From NCBI RefSeq assembly GCF_031127815.1, contig NZ_JARXHY010000002.1:186001-250000 (forward strand): a stretch of DNA of 64,000 bases, written 5' to 3'. This stretch comes from Pelagicoccus sp. SDUM812003 (GTDB taxonomy: Bacteria > Verrucomicrobiota > Verrucomicrobiia > Opitutales > Opitutaceae). Below, one piece after another: positions 47,766-58,339 of the stretch (the first letter of the stretch is position 1; each line of letters begins with the position of its first letter). The notes below the pieces were generated by a model. The model saw only the letters and a program-made list of their open reading frames with translations. It did no database searches and was not told the origin of the DNA. The position numbers and the translations under genes are program-made.

Positions 47766-50513
47766 ATGGTCACATTCGCAACGCGTTCGAACGCAGACTT
47801 AATCGACCTCAACTACGAGAAGTGGAAGGCCGACCCCCAATCGGTAGACGAGAACTGGAGAGCGTTCTTCGAAGGCTTCGAGCTCGCGCTCGCATCCGCC
47901 CCCGTAAGGAAAACAGGCTCGACCGCCAAGGGCGGCGCCTCGCTGGGAAGCGCTTCGAAGCAGATGAATGTTTCGAGCCTGATCTACGCCTACCGCAGTC
48001 TCGGGCACACTCAAGCCTGGCTCGATCCGCTCTCGGAAAAGCCGCCGGCCAACGATGACTTGCGCATCGAGGAGTTCGGACTCAACGAAGCGGACCTCGA
48101 CACCGCCTTCGACTCCGGCCACTTCCTCGACGGTCAGCCGCTCAAGCTGCGCGATCTCATCGAAGCCCTGCGCAAAACCTACTGCTCCAACATCGGCTAC
48201 GAGTACATCCACATGCAGAACACGGACGCTCGTCGCTGGATACAGCGCAAGATCGAGCCGCTGCAGGGCAAGATCGACTTTTCCGAGAAGGTCAAAACCC
48301 GCATCCTGCGCAAGGTCTTCGCCGCGGAGTCGTTCGAGAGTTTTCTCCACACCCGCTACGCCGGACAAAAGCGTTTTTCGCTCGAGGGCGGCGAGACGCT
48401 TATCCCTTGCTTGGACAACCTGCTGGAACACTGCGGGCGCCTCGGCATCAAGGAAGTGGTCATGGGCATGGCCCACCGCGGTCGCCTCAACGTGCTCGCC
48501 AACACGCTCAAGAAATCCTACGAGTTCATCTTCGAGGAATTTGGCGATACCTACATACCGGACACGGTGGGCGGCGACGGCGACGTCAAGTACCACCTTG
48601 GCTACGAGAAAGTGATCGAAACCAAGGAGGGCCACTACGTCGAAATCCGGCTCGCCTCCAATCCAAGCCACCTCGAAGCGGTCAACCCGGTGGTCGAAGG
48701 CAAAGCCCGAGCTCGTCAACGCATCCTAAACGATTCCCAGCGCAAGAAGGTCCTGCCGGTTCTCGTTCACGGAGACGCGGCCTTCGCCGGACAAGGCATG
48801 GTGGCGGAAGTCCTTAACTTCTCGCAGCTCCCCGGCTACCGAACTGGCGGCACCGTGCACATCATCGTCAACAACCAGATCGGCTTCACCACCACCCCCA
48901 AGGAAGCGCGCTCCACTCGCTACTGCACCGACATCGCCAAGATGATCGAAGCGCCGATCTTCCACGTCAACGGCGACGATCCCCTAGCTGTGGTGTTCGT
49001 CACCCTGCTGGCCATCGAATACCGCCAAGCCTTCGGCGCCGATGTGGTCATCGACATGTATTGCTACCGCAAGCACGGCCACAACGAGTCGGACGAGCCG
49101 ATGTTCACCAACCCGGATCTCTACGACAAGATTTCCAAGCACCCGCCGGTCAGCTCAGCCCTCGCCAAGCGACTCACGAGCGACGGCACGCTTTCGGAAA
49201 AGCAGATCGAAAGCATCCGCAAGGAATACGAAAGCTCGCTCGCCAACTCGCTGGAACGCGTCAAGAAAGCGGCGGAAACACAGATCCAGGCCCGCAAGGC
49301 CTTCGCGGGCTCCAACGCCGTTTTCCAACCGCAATACAGCTTCAACCCCGTGGAAACCGGCGTGCCGCGCGAAACGCTGGAGGTCATCGTGCGCGGACTG
49401 ACCTCTCTTCCGACCCACATAAAGCCGAATCGCAAAATCAAGCGCTTCCTCGACAATCGAAAGACCGCCTTCGAAAACAACGAACCAATCGACTGGTCCT
49501 ACGCGGAGGCGCTGGCCTTCGGAAGCCTGCTCAATCAAGGCACTCCCGTTCGCCTCTCCGGTCAGGACTCGGAGCGCGGCACCTTCAGCCAACGTCACGC
49601 CGTTATCCACGATGTGGATACGGACGAACGCTACATCCCGCTGCTGCATATCGACAAGGACCAGGCGCGATTCTGCGTGTACAATTCCCTGCTCTCCGAA
49701 GCGGGCGTGCTAGGCTTCGACTTCGGCTATTCGCTCGACTACCCGCGCATGCTCTGCCTCTGGGAGGCCCAGTTCGGCGACTTCGCCAACGGCGCCCAGG
49801 TCATCATCGACCAGTTCATCACCAGCAGCGAATCCAAGTGGGGCCGCGTGTCCGGACTGGTGATGCTCCTCCCGCACGGATACGAAGGCCAAGGCCCCGA
49901 GCACTCCTCCGCTCGACTGGAACGCTTCCTCCAAGCCTGCGCCGAGGACAATATCCAAGTCGCTAATCTCTCCTCCCCCGCTCAGTATTTCCACATCCTC
50001 CGACGCCAAATGATGCGCGAGTTCCGCAAGCCGCTCGTCATCATGGCTCCGAAGTCGATGCTGCGCTTGAAGGAAGCCGCCTCGGATTGGTCCGATATCG
50101 AATCCGGCTCCTTCCTCGAAATCATCGACGACGCGAACGCGAAACCTGCCAAGGTCAACCGCCTCATCCTTTGCTCCGGCAAGGTGTACTTCGACCTGAT
50201 CAAAAAAAGAGAGGAGCTGAAGGACAACTCCGCCGCCATCGTAAGAGTCGAGCAACTCTACCCGCTGCACGCCGAGCGCCTAAAGGAAATCGCCGAAAAG
50301 TATTCAAAAATCGATACACTGGTCTGGAGCCAGGAAGAGTCTCAAAACATGGGCCCCTACACCTTCATCGCTCCTCGTTTGGAAAAAATATTCGACAAGA
50401 AGGTCGTGTACGCAGGTCGCGACGAAAGCGCCAGCCCAGCCGTTGGCGTTATGGCCTTGCACAAGAAGGAACTTGCCCAGCTTCTCGACGAAGCGTTCAC
50501 CCTCAAATCGTAA
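47766..50513 (+). CDS. sucA: 2-oxoglutarate dehydrogenase E1 component
   Basis: 915 residues. The thiamin-diphosphate subunit decarboxylates 2-oxoglutarate in the citric-acid cycle. N-terminal YEKWKADPQSVDENWRAFFE, MGMAHRGRLNVLAN, VHGDAAFAGQGMVAEVLN, NNQIGFTT, HVNGDDPLAV, CYRKHGHNESDEP and C-terminal LPHGYEGQGPEHSSARLERFLQ (in part) and VWSQEESQNMGPY are all SucA signatures. It heads a sucA-sucB-lpd operon. A GATCCT/AGGATC stem (47730-47746) lies 19 bp before ATG. Confidence 0.97.
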   Translation: MVTFATRSNADLIDLNYEKWKADPQSVDENWRAFFEGFELALASAPVRKTGSTAKGGASLGSASKQMNVSSLIYAYRSLGHTQAWLDPLSEKPPANDDLRIEEFGLNEADLDTAFDSGHFLDGQPLKLRDLIEALRKTYCSNIGYEYIHMQNTDARRWIQRKIEPLQGKIDFSEKVKTRILRKVFAAESFESFLHTRYAGQKRFSLEGGETLIPCLDNLLEHCGRLGIKEVVMGMAHRGRLNVLANTLKKSYEFIFEEFGDTYIPDTVGGDGDVKYHLGYEKVIETKEGHYVEIRLASNPSHLEAVNPVVEGKARARQRILNDSQRKKVLPVLVHGDAAFAGQGMVAEVLNFSQLPGYRTGGTVHIIVNNQIGFTTTPKEARSTRYCTDIAKMIEAPIFHVNGDDPLAVVFVTLLAIEYRQAFGADVVIDMYCYRKHGHNESDEPMFTNPDLYDKISKHPPVSSALAKRLTSDGTLSEKQIESIRKEYESSLANSLERVKKAAETQIQARKAFAGSNAVFQPQYSFNPVETGVPRETLEVIVRGLTSLPTHIKPNRKIKRFLDNRKTAFENNEPIDWSYAEALAFGSLLNQGTPVRLSGQDSERGTFSQRHAVIHDVDTDERYIPLLHIDKDQARFCVYNSLLSEAGVLGFDFGYSLDYPRMLCLWEAQFGDFANGAQVIIDQFITSSESKWGRVSGLVMLLPHGYEGQGPEHSSARLERFLQACAEDNIQVANLSSPAQYFHILRRQMMREFRKPLVIMAPKSMLRLKEAASDWSDIESGSFLEIIDDANAKPAKVNRLILCSGKVYFDLIKKREELKDNSAAIVRVEQLYPLHAERLKEIAEKYSKIDTLVWSQEESQNMGPYTFIAPRLEKIFDKKVVYAGRDESASPAVGVMALHKKELAQLLDEAFTLKS

Positions 50514-50534
50514 CGACTCTTTCAATACACCAAC

Positions 50535-51785
50535 ATGGCGACTGAAGTAATAGTGCCCACACTTGGCGAATCGATCACCTCCGGGATCATCGCCGCATGG
50601 AACGTCCAAGACGGCGACTACGTCGAAAAGGACCAAGTCATCTACGAGCTCGAGACCGACAAGATCACCTCCGAGGGGATCGCCGAGGTGTCCGGTGTCG
50701 TTTCTCTGTCCGCCTCCGAAGGCGACGAAGTAGAAATCGGTCAGGTCATCGCTACCATCGACGAATCCGCGGAAGCGCCGTCCGACAACTCGGAGAAAAA
50801 GGAATCGGCCGAAGAGCCCGAAGTCAAATCCGAGGAATCGGGCGAATCCGAAGAAGCGAAACCGTCCGCCGAATCCTCCGACGCCGTCTCGCCTGCCGTG
50901 CGACGCATCGCCGCAGAAGAGGATCTCGATCCGGCAAGCGTGGAAGGATCCGGCAAGGCCGGCCGCGTGACCAAGGGAGACATGCTGAAAGCCCTCTCTG
51001 ATCGCCCCTCGGTCAAGGAAAGCAAGCCTGCCAAAAAAACCGCTGCCGAAACTCCCAAACCAGCCGCCAAATCGAAGCCGGCTGGCGAGCGTACGACTCG
51101 CAAGCGCATGACGCCGCTGCGCAAGAAGATCGCCGAGCGACTCGTTTCCGCCCAGCAGGACGCGGCCATGCTGACCACTTTCAACGAAGCGGACATGACC
51201 GCCATCAAGGAGCTCCGCGCCAAGTACCAGGACAGTTTCGTCAAGAAGCACGGCATCAAGCTGGGCTTCATGTCTTTCTTCGTAAAGGCAGTGGTGCAAG
51301 CGCTGCAGGAGGTACCTGGAATCAACGCTCAGATCGATGGCGACGAAATCATCCAAAATCACTACTTCGACATCGGGGTCGCTGTATCCACAGAAAAAGG
51401 ACTGATGGTCCCCGTCATTCGCGATTGCGATCAGCTCAACCTGGCTGGCATCGAAAAATCCATCATCGAATACGCCAAAAAAGCTCGGGAAGGAAAGATC
51501 CAGATCGACGACCTACAGGGCGGCGTATTCACCATCACCAACGGGGGCATCTTCGGCTCCATGCTTTCCACTCCCATCCTCAATGCTCCGCAAAGCGGCA
51601 TCCTCGGCATGCATGCCATCCAGGAACGCCCTGTCGCTGTGAAGGGCCAAGTGGAAATACGCCCGATGATGTATTTGGCCGTCTCATACGATCACCGCAT
51701 CGTCGACGGTAAGGAAGCGGTCACCTTCCTCGTCAAGGTGAAGGAAGCCCTGGAGGATCCGACTCGCTTGCTTCTCGACGTCTAA
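50535..51785 (+). CDS. sucB: 2-oxoglutarate dehydrogenase E2 (dihydrolipoamide succinyltransferase)
   Basis: 416 residues. One lipoyl domain (about 1-80) carries the lipoylated Lys K43 in [12 protein letters not shown] Glu/Ser-rich linker (85-118), a peripheral subunit-binding domain (about 119-155, [20 protein letters not shown]), an Ala/Lys/Pro linker and the catalytic domain (about 190-416) follow. The active-site His is in [13 protein letters not shown]. It assembles the core of the complex. Confidence 0.96.
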
Positions 51786-51838
51786 CCTTGCCTGTTCACC
51801 GACCGTCCCGATAGAGACGATCCGTAGCTCAAACTGTA

Positions 51839-53239
51839 ATGTCTGATAAAAACTCTTTCGATGTGGCCGTTATCGGCGGCGGACCCGGCGGCTATGTTGC
51901 GGCCATCCGCTGCGCCCAGCTTGGGCTGAAAACCGCCTTGGTGGAAAAACGCAAGGCGCTCGGCGGCACCTGTCTGAACATCGGCTGCATTCCTAGCAAA
52001 GCCCTCCTCCACACTAGCGAGCAGTTCCTTTTCGCCAAGAAGCACGCCAAGGAGTCCGGCGTGGAAATCTCGGGCGATGTATCGTTGAATTTGGATACAG
52101 TGATGAAAAAGAAGGACAAGGTGGTCAAGCAGCTCACTGGCGGCGTAGACATGCTCGTGAAGAAACGCGGCATCACTCGCTTCAATGGCCACGGAAAGCT
52201 TCTGGGAGACGGCAAGATCAGCGTGGACGAAAAGGACGAGCTTTCCGCTAAGCACATCATTTTGGCCACAGGATCGGTCCCGGTGGAGCTTCCATTCATG
52301 AAGTTCGACGGCGAGACGATCGTGTCGAGCGATCACGCGCTTTCCTTCGACAAGGTGCCCGAAGAATTCGTGGTCATCGGCGCCGGTGCCATCGGCTTGG
52401 AACTGGGATCCGTCTGGAGCCGCTACGGTTCAAAGGTCACCGTCCTAGAGTTTCTACCGAAGATCGCGGCCGGATCGGATGACGATGTATCCAAATTCCT
52501 GGAACGCTGCTTCAAGAAGCAGGGCATGACCATTCACACCGAAACCAAGGTGACCGGCTCGAAGGAGATCGACGGAAAGCTCAACGTGGTGGCGGAAAAG
52601 AAAGGCAAGGAAATCACCGTGCCCGCCGACAAGGTTCTCGTGGCGGTAGGACGCAAGCCCTACACGGAAAACCTCGGCCTCGACAAGGTCGGCATCGAGC
52701 CCGACAAGCGTGGCTTCATCGAAATCGACGATCACTTTAAGACCTCCGCAGACGGCGTCTACGCTATCGGCGACATCGTGCGCGGGCCCATGCTCGCCCA
52801 CAAGGCCGAGGAAGAAGGCGTGGCCATTGCCGAGATGATCGCAGGCAAAGCGGGCCACGTGAACTACGATGTCATCCCAGGCGTCATCTACACCGAGCCC
52901 GAAGTGGCGACCGTCGGCCTCACCGAGGCTCAAGCCAAGGAAAAGGACATCAAGGTGAAGGTCGGAAAGTTCCCTCTCGCCGCCAACGGTCGGGCCATCG
53001 CCTCCGACGCCACCGACGGCATGGTCAAGATCATCGCCTGCGCCGAAACCGACAAGATCCTCGGCGGCCAAGTCGTGGCAAAAGGCGCCAGCGAAATGAT
53101 CGCCGAAATCGTGACCCACATGGAGTACGGCGGAAGCGCCGAAGACCTCGGCCGCACCGTTCACGCCCATCCGACCATTTCCGAATCCATCAAGGAAGCC
53201 GGACTGGCGGTAGACGGAGCAGCGATCCACTCCTTGTAA
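51839..53239 (+). CDS. lpdA: Dihydrolipoyl dehydrogenase (E3)
   Basis: 466 residues. The FAD motif is [11 protein letters not shown], the redox-active disulfide [16 protein letters not shown], the NAD motif [15 protein letters not shown], and the C-terminal HAHPTISE carries the catalytic His-Glu pair. It reoxidizes the lipoyl groups of the E2 subunit. Gaps of 21 and 53 bp in the sucA-sucB-lpd order support one operon. Confidence 0.97.
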
Positions 53240-53520: not shown

Positions 53521-53595
53521 TTTGGAACGATTCCAATTTTCACTTGATATTTAGAATTATTCTCATTTGATCCTGCGACTTAGAGTTATTCTAAA
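53521..53595 (+). promoter_or_regulatory. Three evenly spaced Irr/Fur-like palindromes before the Fur-family gene
   Basis: Three 17-bp elements with a 7-3-7 layout: TTTGGAA-CGA-TTCCAAT (53521-53537), TTTAGAA-TTA-TTCTCAT (53550-53566) and CTTAGAG-TTA-TTCTAAA (53579-53595). Their centres (53529, 53558, 53587) are exactly 29 bp apart, close to three helical turns. The last lies 15 bp before the ATG. As I recall, TTTAGAA-N3-TTCTAAA is the type of site bound by Irr and PerR-like Fur proteins. Autoregulation and control of suf are inferred. Confidence 0.65.
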
Positions 53596-54074: not shown

Positions 54075-54839
54075 ATGAGCAATACACTCGAAATCAAGAA
54101 CCTCAGCGTAAGCATCGGCGACAAGCAGATCCTAAAGGACTTCAACCTCGTGGTACCGAAGGGCGAAGTGCATGCCATCATGGGGCCGAACGGCACCGGA
54201 AAGAGCACCCTTGCCAAAGCCATGGCCGGCCACCCCGACTACGAAGTCACTAGCGGCGAGATCATCATAGACGGCGTTAGCATCCTGGAGATGGAGCCGG
54301 ACGAGCGGGCGCGCGAAGGGCTCTTCCTCGCTTTCCAGTACCCGATGGAAATCCCAGGCGTGACCATCGCCAACTTCATCCGGGCCGCCCTCAACGCCCG
54401 ACTCCCCGAGGATCAGGAGCTCAACGCTCCCGACTACTACAAGTCCCTCTACGCGAAGATGGACATGCTGAAAATCGACCGCAAGTTCACCTCCCGCGCC
54501 GTAAACGACGGCTTCTCCGGCGGGGAAAAGAAGCGCTGCGAAATCCTGCAGATGGCCATGCTCGACCCGAAGTACGCCGTGCTCGACGAGACCGATTCCG
54601 GCCTCGACATCGACGCCTTGAAGGTGGTTTCCGAAGGGGTCAACTCCCTGCGAGGACCCAATCTCGGCGCTTTGGTCATCACTCACTACCAACGCTTGCT
54701 CAACTACATCGTGCCGGACGTGGTTCACGTCATGTACGACGGCCGTATCATCAAGAGCGGCGACAAGGATCTCGCCCTCCAGTTGGAGGAAAGGGGTTAC
54801 GATTGGGTCAAGGAACTGGCTGGCGAGGTAGTGGCGTAA
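54075..54839 (+). CDS. sufC: Fe-S assembly ATPase SufC
   Basis: 254 residues from the ATG at 54075. ABC ATPase with Walker [11 protein letters not shown], signature [15 protein letters not shown] and Walker [16 protein letters not shown], the last being the SufC-specific form. SufC drives conformational change in the SufB-SufD scaffold. It starts 32 bp after the Fur-family gene and is followed by sufB and sufD, the usual gene order in many phyla. Confidence 0.96.
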
Positions 54840-54881: not shown

Positions 54882-56291
54882 ATGTCCACTGAAACACCAG
54901 ATATCCAAATCGATCGGGACAAGGGGAATTTCCGCTACACCGAAAGCCACAAGTACGACGCGGGCGTCGGCCTTAACGAAGGTGTCATCGACTACATCTG
55001 CGACGTAAAGGAGGAAGACGATTGGATTCGCGAGTTCCGCAAGAAGGCGCTCAAAGTCTTCCATTCCAAGCCCATGCCCACCCACTGGGCGACCAAGGAT
55101 CTCGAAAACATCGACTTCGACAAGATCCGCTACTACCTCGCCGGAGCCAACCGAGCCAGCAAGAGCTGGGACGACGTGCCGGACGACGTGAAACAGACCT
55201 TCGAACGCCTCGGCATTCCGGAAAACGAGCGCAAGTTCCTCGCCGGCGTGGAGGCTCAATTCGACTCGGAAGCGGCCTACTCCAACATCAAGGAGAGCGT
55301 GGGCAAACAGGGCGTCATCTTCGTCGGCTCCACCGAAGGACTGCTCAAGCACCCGGAAATCTTCCGCAAGTGGTTCGGAAAGGTCATCCCGACCGGCGAC
55401 AACAAGTTCTCCGCCCTGAACAGCGCCGTCTTCTCCGGTGGCTCCTTCATTTACGTGCCGCCAGGCGTGAAGGTGAAGCACCCGCTGCAGGCCTACTTCC
55501 GCATCAACGCGGAAAACTTCGGCCAGTTCGAGCGCACGCTGATCATCGCCGACGAGGGCTCGGAAGTCACCTACATGGAAGGCTGCACCGCCCCGAAGTT
55601 CGACACCGCCACCTTGCACTCCGCAGTGGTGGAGCTGGTGGCCATGCCGGGCGCCAAGATCGAGTACATCACCGTACAGAACTGGGCATCCAACGTCTAC
55701 AATCTGGTCACCAAGCGCGCCATCGCCCACGAGAACGCCACCGTGAAGTGGATCGACTGCAACATCGGCAGCCGCCTCACCATGAAGTACCCAGGCGTTG
55801 TGCTTAAGGGCAAGAAGGCTCGCGGAGAGGTGCTCTCCATCGCTCTGGCAAACGACGGCCAGCACCAGGACACCGGCGCCAAGATGATCCACGCCGCGGA
55901 CGAGACGACTTCAAACATCATCTCGAAGTCCATCTCCATCGGCAAGGGACGCTCCACCTATCGCGGTCAGGTTCACATGCCGAAGAACCTTAAGGGCTGC
56001 AAAAACAACACCGAGTGCGACGCCTTGCTGATCAACAACAACTCGCGCACCGACACCTACCCGGCCATCACCGTTCGCGGCGATAAAAACGCCGTGCAGC
56101 ACGAGGCTTCGGTCTCAAAGGTGTCCGCCGAGCAGATCTTCTACATGCAGCAGCGCGGCCTCAGCGAGGGCGAAGCCATGAGCCTCTCGGTCAACGGTTT
56201 CGTGAACGACCTCACACGCCAGTTCCCCATGGAGTACAGCGTGGAGCTCAAGCGTCTCATCGAACTGGAAATGGAAGGCTCCGTCGGTTAG
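54882..56291 (+). CDS. sufB: Fe-S scaffold protein SufB
   Basis: 469 residues, the normal length. [11 protein letters not shown]-like sequence ([20 protein letters not shown]), VYVPPGVKV-like [47 protein letters not shown] and [19 protein letters not shown] are SufB signatures. SufB is the scaffold on which the [4Fe-4S] cluster forms with SufC and SufD. Confidence 0.97.
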
Positions 56292-56371
56292 TCGGACCTC
56301 GTCCGGATCTCAAATTTCAAACCACAAATTTCAAATTTATACCTGTGAGTTCCCTAACAGAAGACACTCCC

Positions 56372-57700
56372 ATGAGCGAAAGCAGCGAGGTCGTGAGCAA
56401 GATTCGCGAGGCCTTCGGGCGTCATATCGAAGATCTGGATACCGCGCCAAGCTGGTGGAAAGACGCCAAGAACGAGGCGTTCGAGCAGTTCTCGACGTTG
56501 CCGATGCCGACTCGCAAGGACGAGTCCTGGCGCTTCGCCAACGTGAAGAACCTCGGACTCGACGCCTTCAAGTTCGCCGCACTTCCCTCCATCGCGGACG
56601 CCGCCAAGCTGGTCGAGCGCTCCGACTTCCTCGACGCCTACTCAGGCCGCTTCGTTTTCGGCGAAGACCAGACCTTGAAGGCGGACCGCGTCTCGCCCGA
56701 GCTCGCCGAAAAAGGCGTGATCTGGGCCCCTCTCAAGGAAGCGATTTCCAAACACGGCGAAATCCTCAAGGACTACTTCATGAAGCAGGAAGCCGACTTG
56801 GGGTCCGCCAAGTTCGCCGCCTTGCATCACGCCTTCCTAGAAAACGGCGCCCTGCTCTACGTGCCCAAGGGCGTGGAGATCGAAGATCCTTTCGTCGTCT
56901 ACAACTGGAGCATCAACGAGGGCTCGGCCATTTTCCCGCACACGCTTATCATCGCCGAAGAGTTCTCAAAAGTGCGGGTGGTGGAAGCCAACCTTTCCGC
57001 CTCCGACGAAACCACCGCCTACTCGTGCGGGGTCAACCACATCTTCGCCGGCGTCGGGGCCTCAGTCGACTACACGCTGCTGCAGAACTTCAACGAGAAG
57101 ACTCTCGGCTTCCAAATCAACTCCAACATCGCCGGCAAGGATTCGAACGTTAAGACCCTTAGCGTCAACGTGGGCTGCGAGCACTACCGCTCCGAAACCC
57201 ACGGTCAAATCAAGGGCCCGGGCTCGAAGGTGGAGATGCTCTCCCTCGCCGTGGCGGACTACGATCAGGAGATCGACCAGCGCACCCTGCAGACCCACTC
57301 CGCGCCCAACGCGGTGTCCGATCTGCTCTTCAAAAACGCCCTCGTCGACAACGCCAAGACCATCTTCTCCGGCCTCATCAAGGTGGATCCAGGCGCCCAG
57401 CAGACCGACGCCTACCAGACCAACCGCAACCTGCTTCTCAGCAACTCCGCCGAAGCGAACTCTCTGCCAGGACTGGAGATCGACGCCAACGATGTGAAGT
57501 GTAGTCACGGAGCCACTACAGCCCAGATCGACGATGAGGAGATCTTCTACATGAAGGCGCGTGGCATTCCGGAAAATCGGGCTCAAGAGCTCATCGTGTA
57601 CGGTTTCTTCGAAGAGATCCTCAATCGCATCGACTGCGAGAAGCTGGCCGATCGCGCCCGCGAAATTATCCAGGACAAGTTCCGCAAACGCCTGCGGTAA
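56372..57700 (+). CDS. sufD: Fe-S assembly protein SufD
   Basis: 442 residues from the ATG at 56372; a GTG at 56345 in the same frame would add nine residues and cannot be excluded. The N-terminal part holds MPTRKDESWRFANVKNL, and the beta-helix C-terminal part has CSHGATTAQIDDEEIFYMKARGI (in part), which is the SufD signature. SufD pairs with SufB and provides iron entry. Spacing to sufT is 57 bp. Confidence 0.94.
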   Translation: MSESSEVVSKIREAFGRHIEDLDTAPSWWKDAKNEAFEQFSTLPMPTRKDESWRFANVKNLGLDAFKFAALPSIADAAKLVERSDFLDAYSGRFVFGEDQTLKADRVSPELAEKGVIWAPLKEAISKHGEILKDYFMKQEADLGSAKFAALHHAFLENGALLYVPKGVEIEDPFVVYNWSINEGSAIFPHTLIIAEEFSKVRVVEANLSASDETTAYSCGVNHIFAGVGASVDYTLLQNFNEKTLGFQINSNIAGKDSNVKTLSVNVGCEHYRSETHGQIKGPGSKVEMLSLAVADYDQEIDQRTLQTHSAPNAVSDLLFKNALVDNAKTIFSGLIKVDPGAQQTDAYQTNRNLLLSNSAEANSLPGLEIDANDVKCSHGATTAQIDDEEIFYMKARGIPENRAQELIVYGFFEEILNRIDCEKLADRAREIIQDKFRKRLR

Positions 57701-57757: not shown

Positions 57758-58339
57758 ATGCAACAAACCGAAGAGCAAAAGCAACGCAGCCTCACCCGAG
57801 AAGTCGAAGCGGTGCAGATCCCCAGCGGAGAGCCGCTCCAGCTCCCCGCCCTCTCGAAAGTATACATCACCCAGCAACTGGGCGGAAGCTACACCGTGAT
57901 GACCGACTTCGGCCTGGCCCGCATCGACGGTCGCGACGCGGATGCGCTCGGACAGGACATCGCCGACGAGCAGGCCGCCGCTCAGGAGGCTGCCGAGAAG
58001 AAAAAGACGCAGCCCTCCGACGAAACGCCCGACGAGGAAGCGATCTGGCAACAACTCCGCAACGTCTACGACCCCGAGATCCCAGTCAACATCGTGGACC
58101 TCGGACTGGTCTACTCCATGGTGGTCGAAGAAACGGAGAACAAGGCCAGCAAAGTGGTGGTGCAGATGACGCTCACCGCTCCGGGCTGCGGCATGGGACC
58201 GGCCATCGCCGAGGACGCCCGCAGCAAGGTCATGCTGGTGCCCGGCGTCGACGAAGCGGAGGTCAACCTCGTGTGGGAGCCAGCGTGGGATCAGAGTATG
58301 ATCAGCGAAGAGGGCCGCATGATTCTCGGCCTGGTCTAA
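57758..58339 (+). CDS. sufT: Fe-S assembly-associated protein SufT (DUF59)
   Basis: 193 residues. The N-terminal ~80 residues are specific to SufT-type proteins; the DUF59/MIP18 domain covers about 95-190 (VYDPEIPVNIVDLGLVYSM, then TLTAPGCGMGPAI with the conserved Cys). Related proteins aid maturation of Fe-S enzymes. It closes the operon; a terminator follows within 60 bp. Confidence 0.9.
   Translation: MQQTEEQKQRSLTREVEAVQIPSGEPLQLPALSKVYITQQLGGSYTVMTDFGLARIDGRDADALGQDIADEQAAAQEAAEKKKTQPSDETPDEEAIWQQLRNVYDPEIPVNIVDLGLVYSMVVEETENKASKVVVQMTLTAPGCGMGPAIAEDARSKVMLVPGVDEAEVNLVWEPAWDQSMISEEGRMILGLV

Follow-up and report, generated by a model that had tools for sequence, protein, structure and literature searches.

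The suf locus and its upstream palindromes

The window (the whole 64,000-nucleotide stretch of Pelagicoccus sp. SDUM812003 DNA that was analysed) carries a gene for a Fur-family regulator that is the first of the predicted unit regulator-sufC-sufB-sufD-sufT and that is preceded by three palindromes of 17 bp each (Table 1). An earlier note on this DNA had described these palindromes as centred at 53529, 53558 and 53587 with a spacing of exactly 29 bp, and they were confirmed at precisely these positions. The candidate operator centres lie 24, 53 and 82 bp upstream of the regulator start codon. The adjacent gene had been taken to encode a Fur-family protein lacking CxxC motifs, and this was borne out (Pfam FUR 74.6 bits, cut-off 23.1), as was the assignment of the next four genes to Fe-S assembly, sufC, sufB, sufD and sufT all scoring above the curated NCBIfam cut-offs. 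Just upstream, on the same strand, positions 47766-53239 hold 2-oxoglutarate dehydrogenase-like E1, E2 and dihydrolipoyl dehydrogenase frames; E1 and E2 were named from sequence only, and the third frame has Pyr_redox Pfam matches.

Table 1. Features of the suf locus in the window (all on the forward strand)
Feature	Position (strand)	Sequence or supporting match	Score or remark
Operator site 1	53521..53537 (+)	TTTGGAACGATTCCAAT, TTTGGAA-CGA-TTCCAAT	weight matrix 24.3 bits
Possible -35 element, lying in the gap that separates site 1 from site 2	53544..53549 (+)	TTGATA	putative, from TTG recurrence in Opitutales
Operator site 2	53550..53566 (+)	TTTAGAATTATTCTCAT, TTTAGAA-TTA-TTCTCAT	weight matrix 22.3 bits
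Operator site 3	53579..53595 (+)	CTTAGAGTTATTCTAAA, CTTAGAG-TTA-TTCTAAA	weight matrix 20.8 bits
suf-linked Fur-family regulator, 143 aa	53611..54042 (+)	His38, Cys63, Cys86, His92, His94, Asp105	
sufC	54075..54839 (+)	NCBIfam TIGR01978	355.1 bits, cut-off 212.8
sufB	54882..56291 (+)	NCBIfam TIGR01980	622.1 bits, cut-off 346.4
sufD	56372..57700 (+)	NCBIfam TIGR01981	266.5 bits, cut-off 222; start codon uncertain, frame opens at 56345
sufT	57758..58339 (+)	NCBIfam TIGR03406	216.2 bits, cut-off 202.6

Near-confinement of the motif to suf

The frequency of the motif was examined at three levels. In the window, the pattern TTTAGAANNNTTCTAAA with up to three mismatches gave six matches versus 1.01 expected (the maximum of 100 shuffles being 4), and three of the six are the suf operator sites. 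In the whole 5.75-Mb genome, the sole exact match to TTRGAANNNTTCYAA is site 1; when one mismatch was allowed, 31 forward matches were obtained, three of them the suf sites, compared with 23 for the reversed-pattern control. When 25 pattern loci (10 of one search and 15 of the 31 from the search allowing one mismatch) were scored with the weight matrix, the three suf sites reached 20.8-24.3 bits and the best other site 15.8 bits.

Finally, TTRGAAYNRTTCYAA was searched with zero mismatches in 54 genomes, which produced 55 forward matches distributed over 39 genomes and five matches for the reversed control. As many as 46 of the 55 are located at suf, 45 of them before the suf-linked Fur gene and one (genome G027) before sufC. 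The nine exact matches away from suf comprise four inside predicted frames of at least 100 aa, one at a frame edge and four outside; as judged by eye from the translations of neighbouring frames, one is followed about 300 bp on by a sigma-factor-like gene and one stands before a cytochrome c-like gene. These scans, of which the earlier note had proposed that of the genome, support the sites as real and nearly suf-specific. A wider regulon was considered and rejected, as the searches of the own genome and of the 54 genomes yielded few other sites (nine of 55 off suf versus five in the control).

Gene order across relatives

Among the 57 genomes that comprise the own genome and relatives up to order level, 53 gave a match to the regulator, with only a weak, non-orthologous Fur match in G027, G033 and G051. 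sufC lies just downstream and on the same strand at all 50 orthologue loci of this set; this number includes locus L063, which is broken in its assembly and was excluded whenever proteins or motifs were counted. When the search was extended to 288 genomes across the phylum, 174 gave a match of some kind at E 1e-15. Of the same-class genomes listed, 51 in all, 35 have a strong match (E no worse than 1e-33), two a weak one and 14 none, which means that not every member of the class has the suf-regulator system. From the 37 strong matches listed, 27 further loci were examined (25 of the 35 at class level, plus G177 and G255, which share the order), 25 of the 27 being from other families of the class. 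Here sufC was found just downstream in 26 cases, the exception being L200, which has no sufC within about 1 kb downstream and is still counted as a member of the suf clade. None of the 13 weaker Fur matches (L216-L228) is linked to sufC, one of them having a weak ABC match on the opposite strand. As judged by these comparisons of gene order, the regulator-sufC arrangement is old.

Two local variants of this arrangement should be mentioned. At the class-level loci L207, L208, L214 and L215 the end of the regulator adjoins sufC (the first matched sufC residue is at +3), and boxes upstream are either weak or absent. In G027 (L236, about 1890-2020) the operators are kept directly before sufC, with a transposase-like frame just upstream, yet the assembly contains no orthologue of the regulator; this could be due to a recent loss, to an assembly gap or to use of the sites by another protein.

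Conservation of the sites and of their spacing

Ten loci were aligned, eight from the genus (that of the window included) and two from near genera. Sites 1 and 2 together with the bases between them form a conserved block, the remaining upstream region being little conserved. Site 1 is kept in all ten loci, and site 3 is conserved within the genus and to a lesser degree in the two near genera.

A weight matrix refined on Opitutales detected one or more sites in 48 of the 49 Opitutales upstream regions (L063 dropped; shuffle mean 0.36), with no site at threshold in L059. Outside its training set, the same matrix detected sites in the upstream regions of 20 of the 27 further loci (shuffle mean 0.24), with none at threshold in L190, L193, L198, L200, L207, L208 and L214, and in one of the 13 upstream regions of non-suf Fur genes. 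A matrix whose training was limited to the eight Pelagicoccus loci gave sites in 40 of the 41 other Opitutales upstream regions at a threshold of 6 or 8; at a threshold of 10 the number was 38, and at 12 it was 36. The shuffle means at thresholds 6, 8, 10 and 12 were 2.82, 0.9, 0.62 and 0.26, respectively.

With regard to spacing, neighbouring sites were 29 bp apart in 36 of 42 pairs (the others being three of 30 bp and one each of 23, 28 and 88 bp), in 22 of 28 pairs when one Pelagicoccus was kept, and in 18 of 23 consecutive pairs found by the Pelagicoccus-trained matrix at threshold 8 in the other Opitutales loci. At the further loci site pairs were rare (three) and none had 29 bp, which makes this spacing a mark of Opitutales. 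Both motif and spacing are kept before orthologues of the regulator, and the operator claim of the earlier note withstood this comparison.

The equal spacing had also been read as placing all sites on one face of the DNA. This is wrong: at 10.5 bp per turn, 29 bp amounts to 2.76 turns and successive sites are rotated by about 85 degrees, and the argument for cooperative binding from a common face therefore fails. The spacing may have another origin. A TTG is located 6 nt past the first site in 27 of the 41 Opitutales upstream regions with a site, and in 11 of 20 further upstream regions a TTG overlaps the right end of the site. In many two-site Opitutales the 29 bp can be read as a 17-bp site, 6 bp and a hexamer starting with TTG, followed by the next site, so that the layout of the promoter may set the spacing. 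This recurrence suggests that the sites flank or overlap a -35 element. A consensus promoter scan found no sigma-70-type promoter, so that the promoter is putative and activation may take place at the sites instead of repression.

The regulator protein and its altered metal site

The regulator belongs to the Fur superfamily, as demonstrated by a Pfam FUR score over the cut-off together with matches to Fur and PerR structures in the PDB. The predicted model (pLDDT 86.6) had PerR, Fur and Mur structures as its top PDB matches, with 3f8n (PerR of B. subtilis) and 5nl9 (the peroxide regulator of Leptospira) among the Foldseek matches. In B. subtilis PerR the regulatory metal is bound by His37, Asp85, His91, His93 and Asp104 (PMC4866751; this and the other papers are cited from excerpts of their text). 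The matching residues of the suf-linked regulator are His38, Cys86, His92, His94 and Asp105, meaning that four of the five ligands are kept and that Asp85 is replaced by cysteine.

This pattern was compared over the 76 members of the suf clade, which include eight from one genus and so are not independent of each other. His38, His94 and Asp105 are each present in all 76 and His92 in 74; Cys86 was found in 74 members (L059 having Glu and L062 Asp), Cys63 in equally many (L050 having Ser and L195 Thr) and Pro87 in 65; position 70 holds Cys in 46 members and His in 20. For comparison we used 26 non-suf rows, 13 of them additional Fur proteins of Verrucomicrobiota and 13 taken from plasmid records, the latter including five annotated as Irr or IrrA; one row was unreadable. 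In the 25 readable comparators position 86 is Asp in 23, Glu in two and Cys in none, position 63 is never Cys, and position 70 is His in two and never Cys. The two other Fur proteins of the own genome, which stand outside the comparator count, have Glu and Met (the latter in an unsure alignment) at position 86. Weak Fur matches were also seen in 10 phage records.

The class-level members L194, L202, L205, L206 and L211-L213 keep CxxC while already having Cys63 and Cys86, from which it follows that the sensing-site cysteine is not coupled to loss of the structural zinc site. Moreover, L062 combines Asp86 with a perfect consensus box, showing that Cys86 is not needed for recognition of the box.

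Relation to Irr and to dedicated Fe-S regulators

The Irr consensus is TTTAGAA-N3-TTCTAAA, and the Irr/PerR-like form that the earlier note had ascribed to the boxes was supported. The note had further proposed an Irr-like switch, and this proposal stood in part. The regulator shares with the Irr/IrrA proteins of Alphaproteobacteria the TTAGAA-type box and has the marks of the PerR/Irr group, namely Asp105 as the last ligand, the absence of CxxC and an Asn within the DNA helix (marks after PMC8638967). Membership of Irr did not stand, as judged by scores, clade and Cys86: the NCBIfam Irr models gave 76 bits versus a cut-off of 150 and 72.6 versus 170, the suf clade (support 100/93) and the Irr clade (100/99) are apart, and all Irr rows compared have Asp at position 86. 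Irr as the sister of the suf clade was not rejected (p-AU 0.50, with four Irr rows). This tree, in which the suf rows form a single clade, comprised 82 rows after removal of own_L001, own_L002 and L225; with long branches and only 147 columns, its deeper branching is unsure. In a first quick tree of 85 rows the long-branched Fur L002 of the own genome fell inside the suf group and the suf label needed two changes; twelve near-duplicates were omitted from both trees. The HxH motif is present as HAH at 92-94 and is equally a PerR/Fur feature. The regulator is thus not Irr, though its box and fold are PerR/Irr-like.

In its layout the locus is that of a dedicated suf or isc regulator, a likeness of function and not of homology: the gene lies beside suf, palindromes lie upstream and other targets are few. 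A dedicated regulator tied to the suf or isc operon is what it has in common with SufR (cyanobacteria and some actinobacteria) and IscR; the difference is that SufR is of DeoR type and IscR of the Rrf2 family, both with Fe-S clusters, whereas the regulator described here has a Fur fold. SufR recognises a palindrome upstream of suf and regulates its own expression (PMC8593673, PMC6034842), and by analogy the regulator as first gene, the upstream sites and the near-confinement of the motif are the layout of the autoregulated SufR (PMC8593673).

A proposed switch and its alternatives

From the conserved locus and its layout, we consider it probable that the Fur-family gene encodes a repressor that is dedicated to suf and regulates itself, and that would be the equivalent of SufR and IscR within the Fur family. 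The regulator and sufCBDT would form one transcript, and a regulator dimer would bind the three palindromes. Cys86, together with His38, His92, His94 and Asp105, would hold an iron-containing ligand, the candidate signals being Fe2+, heme or an Fe-S cluster, and the bound ligand would signal sufficient iron or Fe-S and bring about repression of both the regulator and sufCBDT. Upon iron shortage or oxidation the ligand would be lost and suf turned on. Holo-Fur of E. coli and holo-SufR are reported to repress suf (PMC8593673). By analogy, repression when supplied and relief on shortage or oxidation is the most likely polarity, which fits holo-Fur, PerR and SufR. R. sphaeroides Irr has a polarity opposite to that proposed for the suf regulator, and an opposite polarity of this kind may apply at the suf operators. 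Six Rrf2 proteins over the Pfam cut-off, some with several cysteines, are encoded in the own genome, so that other Fe-S regulators may act on suf. An Rrf2-family protein with several cysteines (L246, own genome C24:4857-5264) is a candidate second Fe-S regulator.

What the switch reads can be envisaged in several ways. The most far-reaching is a Fur-family protein in which a sensing-site thiolate (Cys86, with Cys63 and Cys/His70 in and after helix 4) would read an Fe-S cluster or heme directly and which would control suf and itself in Opitutales and sister families; it would then be a further, independently evolved kind of dedicated regulator of Fe-S assembly, a reading that as a whole is possible rather than probable. 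It is rather doubtful, but worth serious attention, that the protein is a PerR-type sensor, in which Fe2+ at His38/Cys86/His92/His94/Asp105 makes the active repressor, peroxide oxidises the site (a His or the new Cys) and thereby releases suf, and Cys86 only tunes the site. The structural matches 5nl9 and 3f8n and the four retained ligands, together with a PerR-type Asn62 and Asp105 (roles: PMC4866751, PMC8638967), agree with such a sensor, and the box is of the TTATAATnATTATAA kind (consensus from PMC11631912); in addition, Leptospira PerRA and PerRB also lack CxxC (PMC8638967), and PerR of S. mutans represses suf in an Fe2+-dependent manner (PMC11631912). It is less easily reconciled with the replacement of Asp85 by Cys in 74 of 76 members, with a motif nearly confined to one operon, with NCBIfam PerR scores that reach no more than 74.3 bits against a cut-off of 180 (every other PerR model listed likewise falling short) and with the lack of any peroxide gene recognised by eye beside the nine exact non-suf matches.

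Cys-Pro is a heme motif, and heme at the HAH motif and at Cys-Pro 86-87 might take the apo-protein off the DNA, as in an Irr-like switch. Irr senses heme, with HxH as its heme motif, and has a global regulon (PMC7762939), and in R. sphaeroides it binds TTAGAAATATTCTAGA at a suf promoter (PMC6956336). The Irr-like box and the frequent Pro87 speak for such a switch, but HxH also occurs in the ordinary PerR/Fur site and so is no pointer to heme, and with scores below both Irr cut-offs and a separate clade we regard it as unlikely. Cys86 might instead be a sulphur donor in a zinc sensor: B. subtilis Zur has Cys84 in place of PerR Asp85, so a cysteine at this position is already known in the superfamily, yet Zur has no equivalent of the His37 ligand (PMC4866751), whereas the suf-linked regulator has His38 in 76 of 76 members and suf as its target, and a separate Zur-like protein, L001 (so judged solely from its sequence), is encoded in the genome, making zinc sensing very improbable. 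It is scarcely to be expected, finally, that the palindromes are bound by another regulator (e.g. the other Fur, L002) with the adjacent gene as a passenger. G027, where operators are kept without the adjacent gene, would suit this explanation, but gene and sites are conserved jointly and the motif is almost confined to the locus, unlike what is expected for a global Fur.

Significance of a probable suf-dedicated Fur-family regulator

The action of Irr at R. sphaeroides suf (PMC6956336) and of PerR at S. mutans suf (PMC11631912) means that control of suf by the Fur family is already known. Among the literature matches listed, none described a Fur-family suf regulator in Verrucomicrobiota, nor was any description found there of a Fur-family regulator that heads suf, is nearly restricted to suf and has an altered site. 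RisR of Myxococcus is another dedicated regulator of Fe-S assembly beside IscR and SufR (PMC9973013), and a regulator of the Fur family that is tied to suf in Opitutales and their sister families, a group from lakes, groundwater and peat according to record titles, would be a further solution. Its altered metal site would allow a direct test of how an iron sensor with Fur fold could become one that senses the supply of Fe-S or heme, and a nearly single-target, autoregulated switch with a fixed operator geometry would make a simple bench system.
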